Shown here piece by piece: positions 40,190-51,602 of a DNA stretch of 64,000 nt (the stretch's first letter is position 1; each line of letters begins with the position of its first letter). The position numbers and the translations under genes were made by a program. The notes below the pieces were generated by a model. The model saw only the letters and a list, made by a program, of their open reading frames with translations, was not told the origin of the DNA and did not search any database. The DNA comes from a virus, in the IMG/VR virus record IMGVR_UViG_3300034072_002211, positions 213,445-277,444 of that record. One strand, written 5' to 3'.

Positions 40190-40268
40190 TGGTGGCCGTT
40201 GTGGGGCTCGAACCCACAACTCTCAGGGGTTTAGAATCCCCGGCTCTGCCAGCTTGAGCTAAACGGCC
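40190..40268 (-). tRNA. tRNA with probable CUA (amber) anticodon
   Basis: Acceptor GGCCGTT/AACGGCC, D-arm GCTC...GAGC, T-arm GTGGG/CCCAC, encoded CCA. Anticodon stem GGGG/CCCC with 31A-39C mismatch; the 7-nt loop TTCTAAA reads CUA. The same A31-C39 mismatch occurs in the Ser(CGA) and Thr(CGU) tRNAs here. A register shift would give UCU (Arg) but with two mismatches. Own promoter at 40277-40305. Confidence 0.7.
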
Positions 40269-46936: not shown

Positions 46937-46965
46937 ACATTATGTGACGCGGACCTTATCGTCAA
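46937..46965 (-). promoter_or_regulatory. tRNA-Glu promoter inside the serS 3' end
   Basis: TTGACG, 17-nt spacer, TAATGT, 9 nt before the tRNA. Confidence 0.75.
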
Positions 46966-48262
46966 GATATCGCTGACCCATATCCAACTCACTTAGGTAG
47001 TGGCAGTTGAGCATATAGGGGCGAAGAACCTCTGGAATCATGACGTCATCGGTCGTCTGGTAATTCTCCAGAACCGCAACCAAAGTGCGACCAACCGCCA
47101 AGCCAGAGCCATTTAGCGTGTGGGCGTAGAACGTCTCGCCATTGACCTTATAGCGGGTGTTCATACGACGCGCTTGGAAGTCGCCGCAGTTCGAGACGCT
47201 GCTGATCTCGCGGTAGGTGTTCTGGCCAGGAAGCCAGACCTCGATGTCGTAGGTCTTCTGTGCGCTGAACCCCATGTCGCCCGCGCACAATAGCATCGTG
47301 CGATAGGTCAGGTCCAACTTGGCCAGGATCTGCTCCGCGGCGTTGAGCATATAGTCATGCTCATGAGCACTCTGCGAAGGCTCACAGACAGTCACGAGTT
47401 CGACCTTTTGGAACTGATGCTGTCGGATAAGCCCGCGCGTGTCTCGGCCCGCAGAGCCCGCCTCTGAGCGATAGCAATCGGTGAGAGCCACGTAGCGATG
47501 CCGCCCACCCAAAAGGATCTGATCCGCATGAATGTTAGTCAGGCTGACTTCAGCCGTGGGGATCAGGAACTGAGTGGGTTCACTTGCTCCATCCTCATCA
47601 GCAATACCAAAGAGATCCTCTTTGAACTTGGGCAGTTGCCCCGTTCCGTAAAGAGCTTCCTCGTTGACGATGGTGGGAGGGATGACCTCACGGTAGCCGC
47701 GCTTGATCTGTTCATCCAGCATGAACTGTCCGAGAGCACGATGTAGTCGAGCCACCGGACCCTGAAGCATTGAGAAGCGCGAGCCGCTGATCTTTGCCGC
47801 CGCGTCAAAACCCAGATCGACTTGATCCAGTTCATAATGCGGTGTGCCATCCCTTGCGCCGACCTTGCCCCAGCGACGGACTTCCACGTTACTGGTCTCG
47901 TCCGTGCCATCTGGCACATCAGCCGCAGGCACGTTGGGACACATGATCAGGAATGCCTCGAGCATCTCTTCAGCGTGAGTTGCCTGAGCAGCCCACATTG
48001 TTTCATTTTGCTTGAGAAGCTTCACCAACTCCTTGAGGGCGTCAGCTGAAGCAGTATTACCCTCCTTCATGGCTTTGCCAATTTCCTGACTCTTGGCCTT
48101 GATTAGGCTGCGAGTGTCCTGAAGCCTCGTGAGCGCATCGCTACGGCGGCTTGCGAACTGCTGGATCTTGTCGATGTGGGGATCGTGCCCGCGGCGCTTC
48201 ATAGCAGCCACGAACTCATCCGGCTTAGCCAGGATGCCCTTGACGTCAAAGTGATACTTCAT
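46940..48262 (-). CDS. serS: serine--tRNA ligase
   Basis: 440 residues, full length. N-terminal coiled-coil tRNA-binding arm (residues about 30-105), class II motif 2 region YRSEAGSAGRDTRGLIRQHQFQKVE and motif 3 GSGLAVGRTLVAVLENYQ. Predicted leaderless or nearly so (weak TTGACT-17-CAAGCT, 6 nt to ATG). Two tRNA-Ser genes lie at 58.5-58.7 kb. Confidence 0.92.
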   Translation of the reverse strand: MKYHFDVKGILAKPDEFVAAMKRRGHDPHIDKIQQFASRRSDALTRLQDTRSLIKAKSQEIGKAMKEGNTASADALKELVKLLKQNETMWAAQATHAEEMLEAFLIMCPNVPAADVPDGTDETSNVEVRRWGKVGARDGTPHYELDQVDLGFDAAAKISGSRFSMLQGPVARLHRALGQFMLDEQIKRGYREVIPPTIVNEEALYGTGQLPKFKEDLFGIADEDGASEPTQFLIPTAEVSLTNIHADQILLGGRHRYVALTDCYRSEAGSAGRDTRGLIRQHQFQKVELVTVCEPSQSAHEHDYMLNAAEQILAKLDLTYRTMLLCAGDMGFSAQKTYDIEVWLPGQNTYREISSVSNCGDFQARRMNTRYKVNGETFYAHTLNGSGLAVGRTLVAVLENYQTTDDVMIPEVLRPYMLNCHYLSELDMGQRYLDDKVRVT

Positions 48263-48309
48263 AGTGCCAGCTTGCTTCCAAATTGGAATAGAGTCAACCA
48301 TTCATGGCG

Positions 48310-48335
48310 AAGCCCCGGAGCGTCCTCCGGGGCTT
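48310..48335 (-). terminator. hairpin terminator
   Basis: 11-bp stem AAGCCCCGGAG / CTCCGGGGCTT downstream of the gene at 48340. Confidence 0.75.
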
Positions 48336-48339
48336 GCTC

Positions 48340-48576
48340 TTACTTCACGAAGTTGGGCTGACCTTCCTTCACGGTCCAAGTAAGCTGGATCCAACCCGCT
48401 GGAATGTAGTGCGACTTACCGTCGGCGCTGAAGATCCGATGACCTCCCGAGTCGCTGACGCTGAGCTGCTCGGGGTTCTGAATCTTCACGAAACCCTTGC
48501 TGCCGAAGTTGTAGACGCGTTCAGCCTCGCTGCTGATATCAGTGAACTTGAGGCCGCTTTCATTCTTGAATGCCAT
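48340..48576 (-). CDS. unknown protein
   Basis: 78 residues, strand-rich, Gly/Ser turns. Single-gene unit between a promoter near 48630 and the hairpin at 48310. Confidence 0.65.
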   Translation of the reverse strand: MAFKNESGLKFTDISSEAERVYNFGSKGFVKIQNPEQLSVSDSGGHRIFSADGKSHYIPAGWIQLTWTVKEGQPNFVK

Positions 48577-48656
48577 AGTAATCTCCTATTCTAGTAATCC
48601 CGTAGGACACCAGAGTTTAACAGAATAGGAGACTGTGGGTCAGTATTCATGGCGAA

Positions 48657-48682
48657 ACCCAGACCGTTTCTGGTCTGGGTCT
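48657..48682 (-). terminator. terminator of the 48.7-49.96 kb RNA
   Basis: 9-bp stem ACCCAGACC / GGTCTGGGT followed by TTCG; the 3' boundary of the structured RNA. Confidence 0.65.
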
Positions 48683-49962
48683 CATAATGTGGTCACCCTG
48701 AGAATGTCGGGTGACCGTCCCGGTCTCTGCGGATTATTCCCTGGATCCTACTCCAGGTATTCCCGCTCACTCCATCACCCTTGCGGGTGTAACCGGTCGT
48801 GCCGCCGTTTTTAACGTCAGGCAGTAGACGTGTCACCATATGCTTTTCGACAGTTTCCACCACACCTGCCTTCGGGGCAGTTAAGGCTTGCGGGCCCTAT
48901 ATGGCTTTCTCTATCAACAACGTCTGGATTGGGTACCAGCTCGCCGCCCTAGTTAGCTTGCGCCCCAGGGATTAGGCACTTTCGAGGTTTCCCTCATACA
49001 CATGGCCGAGTCAGGCTTTCCGTTTTTGACAGCAATGTCCAATATGCTATTACCTGCTAGGAGGTAACCCAGAGAGAAGTGCTGACTCAGTAGTTCCAAG
49101 GCCTTTTGAACCTCAGAATGCTACACTCCTCGTATCGTTCGGCTTGCGGGCCTACTAAATCGGTTTACAGGACTTGTCTGGCTTTTTACACCAACCAAAC
49201 CCTTTGACCTGCCATGAGCCCTAGGCGCGACCCTCGGACAACATGACTACCTCTTGCCACTCGATAGTAAACCTGTTTGAGTAGAGGACGCTGGGGTTAC
49301 AAGGCCCCATTCACCGGCCGCTCGTCGCCACCGGGATTATCGTGCTTTCGCACGGCAGTCGTTCTCAGGTCGTCCTACCTACTGCCACTGCTCCTTGGGA
49401 GAGCTTGACAGTCCCTCTTTTGGAGGGCAGGTGAGGATGCGTGTATTGATCCGAACCGAAGCCCGGACGGCTGGGGATGGGTCCCTTCACCACTTACTTG
49501 GGTTACCCCAAGCTACCACCACACGCGGTAATCTCTTGAAACTTTCGAGTCTCCAACTTAACACCGAAGTGTTTCGCCGTCAACTAAAAAGTTTCCGATC
49601 GATCCCTCTGCGGCGCCACACTCCCCTCGACCAGCTATCTCTGCTTCACTTAGACTGAGGATCCTTTCGGAAACCCCAGGCCTTGTTCTGCTCCTGCTGA
49701 CCTTCGAGGTGTGTAGCACCGCGTTGGTCTCATCGTTCTATGTTCAACCAGTGTCTGCGTCAACAACAAAAATGCCATCCCGCAAACTTTTTTCTCCTCC
49801 AGGAGAAAACCAGGGTCCATAGACGTTTTGGGCCCCCAAGAGAGTTGAATCTCCTGGGGACCCATCGTGGGAGTTTCCTCCTACGTCCCTCTGCGTCTGC
49901 TCCGGTTCGAGTGTCTGGCTCACGAAGTCCAGCTGACCTTACCTTAGCGTCTGCGTTGGTTC
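48657..49962 (-). ncRNA. approximately 1.3-kb structured non-coding RNA
   Basis: No protein-like reading frames. A promoter at 49967-49996 reads in and a terminator hairpin ends it. On the minus strand many stems close on standard RNA tetraloops: CACCC-GCAA-GGGTG, GTGC-GAAA-GCAC, AACAC-UUCG-GTGTT, and a UUCG stem in TCCGGGCTTCGGTTCGGA. UAUGG/CCUAA-type segments suggest tertiary contacts. Size and its place upstream of phage tRNAs recall GOLLD/ROOL ornate RNAs, but no consensus comparison was possible. Confidence 0.65.
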
Positions 49963-49966
49963 ATAA

Positions 49967-49996
49967 CATCTAGCTTTGCGACCCACAGGACGTCAA
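49967..49996 (-). promoter_or_regulatory. promoter of the giant RNA
   Basis: TTGACG with 17-18 nt to CTAGAT/TAGATG, pointing into non-coding sequence. Confidence 0.6.
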
Positions 49997-50041
49997 CAAC
50001 CCTTTTTCAAAGAACTGTGGACAACTCTGTGAGAGATGCCA

Positions 50042-50069
50042 TGGGCCCGACACCGAAGTGCCGAGCCCA
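50042..50069 (-). terminator. UUCG hairpin, likely terminator or RNA end
   Basis: Stem TGGGCtCGGCAC / GTGCCGAGCCCA closed by cUUCGg on the minus strand, between the two RNA blocks. Confidence 0.55.
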
Positions 50070-50104
50070 CGAAATGTAATGTGCTTGCCTGTGAAAAACA
50101 AGCT

Positions 50105-50287
50105 TTACACTGGTGTGTTCACCGAGCCGAGATCAACAGAACGCTGAGGCGCTTGGCCAATGGAACCGTTGTCTTGTGTGGTAGTGGCAGGCGAAGCAAT
50201 GGCGCCGTTGTCGCCGAACAGGAATTTGAATGGTCGGAACAAAAGCTTGCCTTGACCGGACAGCTTGTGGAGCGAGAGTCTAATCAT
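50105..50287 (-). CDS. possible 60-residue protein
   Basis: MIRLSLHKLSGQGKLLFRPF... then a Thr/Asp/Gly-rich tail. Composition is protein-like but there is no ribosome-binding site, and it may be part of the structured RNA. Confidence 0.35.
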   Translation of the reverse strand: MIRLSLHKLSGQGKLLFRPFKFLFGDNGAIASPATTTQDNGSIGQAPQRSVDLGSVNTPV

Positions 50288-50830
50288 GCTACTATTTATG
50301 CTGATAGGTTTAGAGCTCCTGGAGCCGAAACCCCAGGAGCTCAACCAGTTGACCGAAGTCTCTTGGTATTAGAGTAGGTTTCCAGCATAGGTCCAAAGAC
50401 CACTAAGTTGGTTCCTTGCTCTAACGTCGGTTTAGGGGATAGCTAACCGAAATCAACTATCCCCAACCGACAACAAGCCGAAGCCTGCTGTGGTCTCTGT
50501 GCCAGTGTCTGGAGGTTAGCCGAAGCCACACCATCGCAGTCTTTACACAAAGCCGGTTCTGGGACCCTAGTAGGCCGAAGCTTTCCAGGGTCCCAACCGA
50601 GCAAACCGAAGTTTGCTGGCTTTTGTGTAGGGTTCTGCTGTTGCTATGATCGGGCCCGAAAGCCGTCTCAGGGAGTTCAGCAGTCCTTTCACAAAACTCG
50701 GGTTTAGACCAGCTGGGTGTTCATCCGAAGATTACTAGCGCCAGCTGGTCAACCGATGAAAACCGAAGTCTTCATGGTCTCGAAAGTGTTTTGCCGCTGA
50801 GAACAAAACCGAAGTTCTGCGTCATCATTA
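50288..50830 (-). ncRNA. four-module RNA with repeated cUUCGg hairpins
   Basis: The sequence CCGAA recurs about ten times; on the minus strand most copies are UUCG tetraloops. Four modules share one plan: a short UUCG hairpin, then CGGUU, a longer stem-loop (GGGACCCU/AGGGUCCC, GGGGAUAG/CUAUCCCC, GACCAGCUGG/CCAGCUGGUC, AGCUCCUGG/CCAGGAGCU), then AACCG. At least two modules are further closed by long-range pairing, e.g. CTACACAAAAGCC with GGCTTTGTGTAAAG and CAGAGACCAC with GTGGTCTTTG. Stem sequences differ while pairing is kept. Confidence 0.7.
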
Positions 50831-50933
50831 GCATCTGCGCTTCCGATGCTCGCTATGTATGTGACCCGTCCGTGCCGCGCAAGAACTTTTTACAGGACAA
50901 TTACGATTTTGTGTGAATAAGATTGTGGATAAC

Positions 50934-51284
50934 TTAGGACGGATCCGTGAAGACCCAGCCTGACTGGCTTGCTCTCTCGACGAGCATTTCGGAGAATCGC
51001 TCCATGACCTCATCTCCGTCCATGTTACAAGGCCAGTGGGCATCAGCATATTCCAGCCCGATAGCATCCATGAGATAGCCGCGCTCATATGTGTCGAGCG
51101 AGGGCGGACCCCATTTGAGAATCAGCGAGCCGCTATAGCCGGTAATGAGAAGACGCATCAGCCGAGGATGCTTCATAATGATCGCTGCGAGCAACGCTCG
51201 ATTGGGCGCGATCAATCCACGCTCTTTGAGGGTGTTGTCACACACCTCCAGGTGCTGGGCGCTCAACGTGGATAATCGCGGCAT
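50934..51284 (-). CDS. unknown protein
   Basis: 116 residues with a helical, hydrophobic middle (LLAAIIMKHPRLMRLLITGY). Promoter TTGACA-16-TACCAC at 51316-51343. Confidence 0.65.
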   Translation of the reverse strand: MPRLSTLSAQHLEVCDNTLKERGLIAPNRALLAAIIMKHPRLMRLLITGYSGSLILKWGPPSLDTYERGYLMDAIGLEYADAHWPCNMDGDEVMERFSEMLVERASQSGWVFTDPS

Positions 51285-51354
51285 CCCTGTTACCTTTTCC
51301 AGTTATTCACAGTTTGTGGTAACATAGGTGGAGAGGCTGTCAACCAGGAATGTC

Positions 51355-51602
51355 GTCCGGGGCAGGTTGCCCTACCGGCGGCATGGACGGCCATCCTTCC
51401 ACCCCCTCGCGGGCCGGACGTGCTCCCCCGCCGACCCGGGTCGCAAGCGTAATCGGCGGGTTAGATGCTATCTGCTAGAAACCACCGCAACAAAATATGC
51501 GTAAAACCACGTAGCGCGCTCGCAAGGAAACGACCCCGACTTTTTTATCGTCGGGGTCGCCTCTGCAATGGTTCGTTGCTATCTCAGGGAGGTCGGATAG
51601 CA
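51355..51602 (-). ncRNA. candidate small structured RNA
   Basis: Transcribed from promoter 51609-51637 with no reading frame. Contains GACCCCGAC / GTCGGGGTC hairpin with an A-rich loop, a CCCGCCGA / TCGGCGGG hairpin and CGTCCGG/CCGGACG closing pair. Confidence 0.45.

Follow-up and report, generated by a model that had tools for sequence, protein, structure and literature searches.

The window that we analyzed is a DNA stretch of 64,000 nucleotides, taken from a virus record 277,444 nt in length, where it occupies positions 213445-277444. Its 21 tRNA genes all lie on the minus strand, the closest at a distance of 1.7 kb from the GOLLD RNA gene described below, so that the tRNA-rich phage surroundings proposed by an earlier sequence-only reading were recovered. 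One of these tRNA genes (40190-40268, minus strand), called tRNA-Pyl by ARAGORN, has the anticodon CTA and would read amber codons; TAG ends five of the 88 minus-strand ORFs of at least 100 aa, and a comparison of ORF coverage does not favor recoding through an amber-reading tRNA. The sequence-only reading had placed a single giant structured RNA of 1.3 kb at 48657-49962. A structured, non-coding region on the minus strand, which is the sense strand of the locus, is indeed present there, but it consists most likely of a GOLLD RNA of ~0.9 kb together with one or two separate structured elements rather than of one RNA. The remainder of the interval and the 0.9 kb past its end hold further conserved structured elements for which Rfam provides no match. 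In the order of the minus strand, the features are:

50912-50932, minus strand: paired DnaA-box-like 9-mers, TTATCCACA-ATC-TTATTCACA, directly upstream of block A
50854-50882, minus strand: promoter-like element of block A, TTGCGC-N17-TACATA, spaced by 17 nt and lying 6 nt ahead of the conserved start in five of five phages
50847-50307, minus strand: block A, a tandem array of four modules (ACCA-hairpin 1-UGGUUG-hairpin 2-CUAAACC) with hairpins between the units
50701-50778, 50555-50620, 50429-50494 and 50307-50367, minus strand: the units of block A
49770-49990, minus strand: conserved structured segment with the motif AGGTCAGNTGGACTTCGTGAGCCA, kept in the window and in the related records L002 and L003
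49763-49735, minus strand: promoter-like element P1, TTGACG-N17-TAGAAC, at the same place and with 17-nt spacing in six genomes
49590-49729, minus strand: P1 element, a structured segment of ~140 nt with a long helix, between P1 and P2
49583-49555, minus strand: promoter-like element P2, TTGACG-N17-TAAGTT, at the same place and with 17-nt spacing in six genomes, matching the distance seen in L255
49134-49548, minus strand: GOLLD 5' domain of ~415 nt with a predicted start, supported by covariation in five phages and by homology to other GOLLD 5' domains
48695-49133, minus strand: GOLLD 3' domain, RF02032 positions 1-416 (cmscan, 143.7 bits, E=2.2e-39)
48682-48652, minus strand: 3' hairpin, probable 3' end of the RNA or processing site, lacking a U-run, conserved in five to six phages that show compensatory changes
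46940-48301, minus strand: phage seryl-tRNA synthetase (SerRS) gene

As had been read from the letters, no credible gene lies in 48657-49962, and hairpins abound on the minus strand of this interval. Judged against mononucleotide shuffles, the one-stranded GNRA and UUCG loops were confirmed as well: hairpins of at least 4 bp closed by GNRA loops number six on the minus strand and one on the plus strand (shuffled mean 1.1), and those with UUCG loops two and none (shuffled mean 0.06). UUCG loops are much denser just beyond the interval, where positions 50300-50855 hold eight on the minus strand and none on the plus strand (shuffled mean 0.04). The folding z-score of 49548-48645 on the minus strand is -6.2.

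In a permissive cmscan search, the match to the GOLLD family (RF02032) spans all 416 positions of the model, and its score lies 6 bits under the Rfam gathering score of 150, a curation threshold of the database and not a biological feature. When all Rfam families were scanned at their gathering thresholds, only tRNAs were reported. Among the 98 consensus pairs of RF02032, 87 are standard pairs in the window, nine are non-standard and two are gapped; in 37 of the 87 standard pairs, both bases depart from the Rfam consensus. Within 48200-51500, the Rfam models for ROOL and OLE returned nothing up to E=10, and neither these nor other Rfam families account for the identity of the RNA. The previous guess of a GOLLD/ROOL-type RNA was thus correct and can be narrowed to GOLLD, while the accompanying suggestion of a new class was wrong for the RNA in the interval: this RNA belongs to a known family, as a new member that scores below the Rfam cut-off. 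A candidate new RNA class, block A, adjoins it and lies outside the interval.

Four related phage records contain GOLLD orthologs; one is a 40-kb fragment, and the others measure 436-465 kb. Three of the four orthologs score above the Rfam cut-off. Two of them, L002 (462-kb record; 171.1 bits) and L003 (465-kb record; 149.6 bits), were found by searching IMG/VR for the neighboring SerRS, and the other two, L052/L063 (436-kb record; 164.1 bits) and L060/L064 (40-kb fragment; 163.5 bits), by a DNA pattern. A pattern from the 5' domain yielded a sixth relative, L312, in an IMG/VR record of 416,714 nt (148.8 bits); its GOLLD lies, oddly for a phage record, between two histidine-kinase-type ORFs (L312:1-3810), with PAS/HisKA on one side and HATPase/response regulator on the other. 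As comparators, a general GOLLD pattern provided 28 more GOLLD-bearing viral records among 31, plus six bacterial loci. The DNA patterns TTCAAAAG...AGCACTTC and AGACCAACGCGGTGC gave mostly chance-level matches, and a blastn search of the INPHARED phages with the region gave none. Weak full-length GOLLD matches were seen in two giant phage records, L065 (G003:55034-55420, minus strand; 30.9 bits) and L278 (G057:167864-168218, plus strand; 40.2 bits), and are possibly divergent or decayed GOLLDs; G057 also holds a strong one.

In the window, the SerRS gene follows closely downstream of the GOLLD gene with a 78-aa frame between them, an arrangement shared by L002 and L003. A close SerRS was detected neither in G046 nor beside the GOLLD in G053; hence, the linkage of GOLLD and SerRS holds in three of five phages. 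The SerRS of the window is 41-47% identical to those of Brevundimonas jumbo phages, and a search of three Brevundimonas phages that encode a related SerRS detected no GOLLD.

Upstream of the RF02032 match, an alignment of five phages yielded a consensus structure for the 5' domain with 136 pairs, in which 95.2% of the cells are paired. Since this structure was derived from the same alignment, the percentage is favored, and the stronger evidence comes from changes on both sides of a pair. These occur in 49 pairs, compared with 22.9 +/- 3.0 in shuffled alignments and 5-10 when the pairing partners were slid, and G-U cells outnumber A-C cells by 112 to 19. A test for conserved stems by covariation was accordingly strongly positive. 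The presence of a covarying domain of ~415 nt 5' of the RF02032 match indicates a GOLLD RNA of ~0.9 kb.

We infer all transcript starts and ends at this locus from the DNA and its conservation. The 5' domain of the window is recognizable in the GOLLDs of L255, L258, L261 and L264; among these four, homology reaches 370-400 nt upstream of the 3' domain, to a point near P2. In L255, a TTGACG-N17-TATACT element would put the start 412 nt ahead of the 3' domain. Taken together with the matching position of P2, whose form across six genomes is TTGAC(A/G)-N17-TA(N)4, the homology limit and the L255 start suggest that the GOLLD RNA most likely starts near 49548 and ends at ~48652. The promoter that had been proposed to give a start at ~49962 did not hold up, as the promoter-like site near 49996 is not kept in the relatives; a consensus scan of 48657-49962 listed neither a promoter nor a terminator on the minus strand. 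Regarding the proposed terminator, the 3' hairpin is conserved and covaries, but without a U-run it is not a canonical intrinsic terminator. It is followed by TTYNCCATG, which is kept in the relatives. Hairpins at 48300-48335 and 48645-48682 (minus strand), 345 bp apart, both precede TTCGCCATGAAT, a motif whose copy at the GOLLD gene is the conserved TTYNCCATG and which is possibly a terminator or processing signal of the phage.

Upstream of P2, the ~140-nt P1 element shows both-side changes in eight of its 40 predicted pairs among three sequences and is reduced in L063/L064; it is probably a separate small RNA. T5orf172 is a nuclease domain of the GIY-YIG type seen in homing endonucleases. 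In L063 and L064, a homing-endonuclease-like ORF that carries this domain and is 376-395 aa long (L063:2161-3291 and L064:2109-3296, minus strand) stands in place of the conserved segment at 49770-49990 and lies between block A and the GOLLD gene. The window has between block A and GOLLD a 60-aa open frame (50105-50287, minus strand) with no Pfam match and no evident counterpart in the relatives.

These elements might instead form one long RNA of ~1.1 kb, if transcribed from P1, or of up to 2.2 kb, if transcribed from the block A promoter, with the P1 element and block A as 5' extensions of GOLLD. P1 matches the promoter consensus better than P2, whose second hexamer (TAAGTT) is a poor match, which makes a ~1.1-kb transcript conceivable; moreover, the elements all share one strand, keep their order in every phage that has them, and are not separated by a strong terminator. 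However, the GOLLD 5' homology of other phages ends near P2, each element has a promoter-like site of its own, L312 lacks block A but has both GOLLD and the P1 element, and open frames separate block A from GOLLD, namely the homing-endonuclease-like ORF in two phages and the 60-aa frame in the window. We consider a long RNA rather unlikely on these grounds. The 5' homology limit and the separate upstream promoter-like sites likewise led us to reject a single 1.3-kb RNA as the best reading, and block A is most likely transcribed separately from the ~0.9-kb GOLLD RNA.

Block A comprises four units each in the window, in L002 and in L003; L063 and L064 have three apiece. While the sequences of the units diverge, hairpin 2 retains its ten pairs in every one of the 18 units from the five phages, and nine of the ten vary with both-side changes; the 18 units are kin by tandem duplication and descent and are not 18 independent cases. 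An 18-pair model of the module leaves 94.6% of the cells paired, compared with 68.8 +/- 1.8 in shuffles, and reaches a covariation score of 0.744 (0.248 shuffled; at most 0.206 slid), values obtained with an alignment that was fitted to the structure being scored. G-U cells number 24 and A-C cells two, a count that fits a minus-strand RNA and not a DNA palindrome and is partly biased by RNA-based model building; for hairpin 2 as defined by the anchors alone, the numbers are five and zero. In both block A and the GOLLD 5' domain, G-U is far above A-C, which points to a minus-strand RNA. The folding z-scores of block A are -8.9 on the minus strand and -5.9 on the plus strand. A CRISPR-like or plain sequence repeat was rejected: the mean column identity of the units is 51%, and a repeat search found no such family. 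Searches with Rfam 15 returned for block A only chance-level matches in the window, far under the gathering scores; in L063/L064, the sole match other than GOLLD was Histone3 with 25 bits (gathering score 34). No blastn match of block A was found in the INPHARED phages, nor any mention of it in a literature search conducted mostly outside subscription papers, so that an earlier description is possible.

The module model R1 was built from ten units, and the eight others were found by R1 at 29-52 bits. It detects the array once per genome in five related records, and only upstream of GOLLD. No match was obtained in 12 other GOLLD-bearing virus records (the GOLLD match of G003 being weak), in 37 other loci, other GOLLD loci included, or in the three Brevundimonas phages with a related SerRS; a thirteenth GOLLD-bearing record, G081, gave one borderline single match (E=0.0067). 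Block A is absent from L311/L312. Block A may also occur beyond the virus records and loci scanned.

Directly upstream of block A, the DnaA-box-like pair (TWATNCACA-NNN-TTATNCACA) occurs exactly once per genome in five of five related phages and gave no match in three other giant phage records; because this pattern was written after viewing the five sites, the information lies in its uniqueness. On this account, block A might not be an RNA gene but act as DNA, for example as a replication origin of the phage that combines DnaA boxes with hairpins. Yet its pairing tolerates G-U and not A-C, between which a DNA palindrome would not distinguish, and its UUCG loops are confined to one strand. A DnaA C-terminal domain, and with it a phage-encoded DnaA, was not found in the five related phage records, and sampled GC skew shows no switch at block A; an origin at this site is therefore possible, with the boxes as its sole support. 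All in all, we judge the DNA-element reading to be quite improbable. That the interval codes for protein, its structure being incidental, has next to no probability: it overlaps with a few frames of 71-87 aa that are open in a mechanical sense, but a check for coding function found none, the open frames of the relatives differ in place, strand and length, the alignment gaps have many lengths, and the strong compensatory change effectively refutes coding.

RF02032 homology, a covarying 5' domain, a conserved promoter-like element and the setting in a tRNA-rich phage make us highly confident that this giant phage encodes a GOLLD-family RNA of ~0.9 kb at 49548-48652 on the minus strand. Cryo-EM of another GOLLD, the 833-nt env-38, has revealed a two-domain RNA of which fourteen copies close into an RNA-only cage, a homo-14-mer (PMC12286853). 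By analogy, the RNA of the window would adopt a two-domain fold, and fourteen copies of it would assemble into a hollow RNA-only cage made in lytic growth (PMC12286853). Such cages have been suggested to enclose tRNAs, ribosomes or other molecules (PMC12286853), and the GOLLD of a Lactobacillus brevis prophage was, as cited in PMC7567579, dispensable for phage production. It is conceivable, although on the doubtful side, that during infection the cage serves to hold or sequester components of translation, such as phage tRNAs or ribosomes.

In block A, the constant ACCA, UGGUUG and CUAAACC junctions, present in three or four copies on freely varying stems, would offer a protein or another RNA several copies of one binding site and hence suggest a multivalent scaffold or sponge. 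We think it reasonably probable that block A represents a new class of structured phage RNA: an array of modules with its own promoter, located behind the only paired DnaA-box-like sites and tied to the GOLLD cage RNA, perhaps as its partner, cargo or multivalent decoy. A lineage of giant phages with GOLLD and the P1 element, and mostly also with block A, offers a concrete partner hypothesis for GOLLD function, and the R1 model with its 18 copies and the six related GOLLDs form a comparative set for it. The match in the window furthermore illustrates that the Rfam gathering cut-off misses true GOLLDs of giant phages.

Like the GOLLDs already described (RF02032; PMC12286853), the RNA of the window has a complete 3' domain and a separate 5' domain of ~415 nt, totals ~0.9 kb compared with 833 nt in the solved molecule, and resides in a phage genome rich in tRNAs, the family being typical of phages and prophages and often located near tRNA genes. 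Further traits by which the family is recognized are kissing loops between the molecules and an expression that increases in lytic growth. It differs in scoring just under the Rfam gathering cut-off, in lying close upstream of a SerRS gene in three phages, and in having the P1 element upstream of it, together with block A in five phages. ROOL is likewise a large structured phage RNA found near tRNAs and also forms a cage (PMC12286853); the absence of any Rfam ROOL match up to E=10 in the region sets the RNA of the window apart from it. For block A, the closest likeness is one of architecture, without an evident common motif or homology: as in CsrB-type sponge RNAs, several hairpin modules repeat one constant signature. 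CsrB is a sponge RNA with repeated binding hairpins; unlike in such sponges, the module of block A consists of two adjacent hairpins joined by UGGUUG and CUAAACC junctions.
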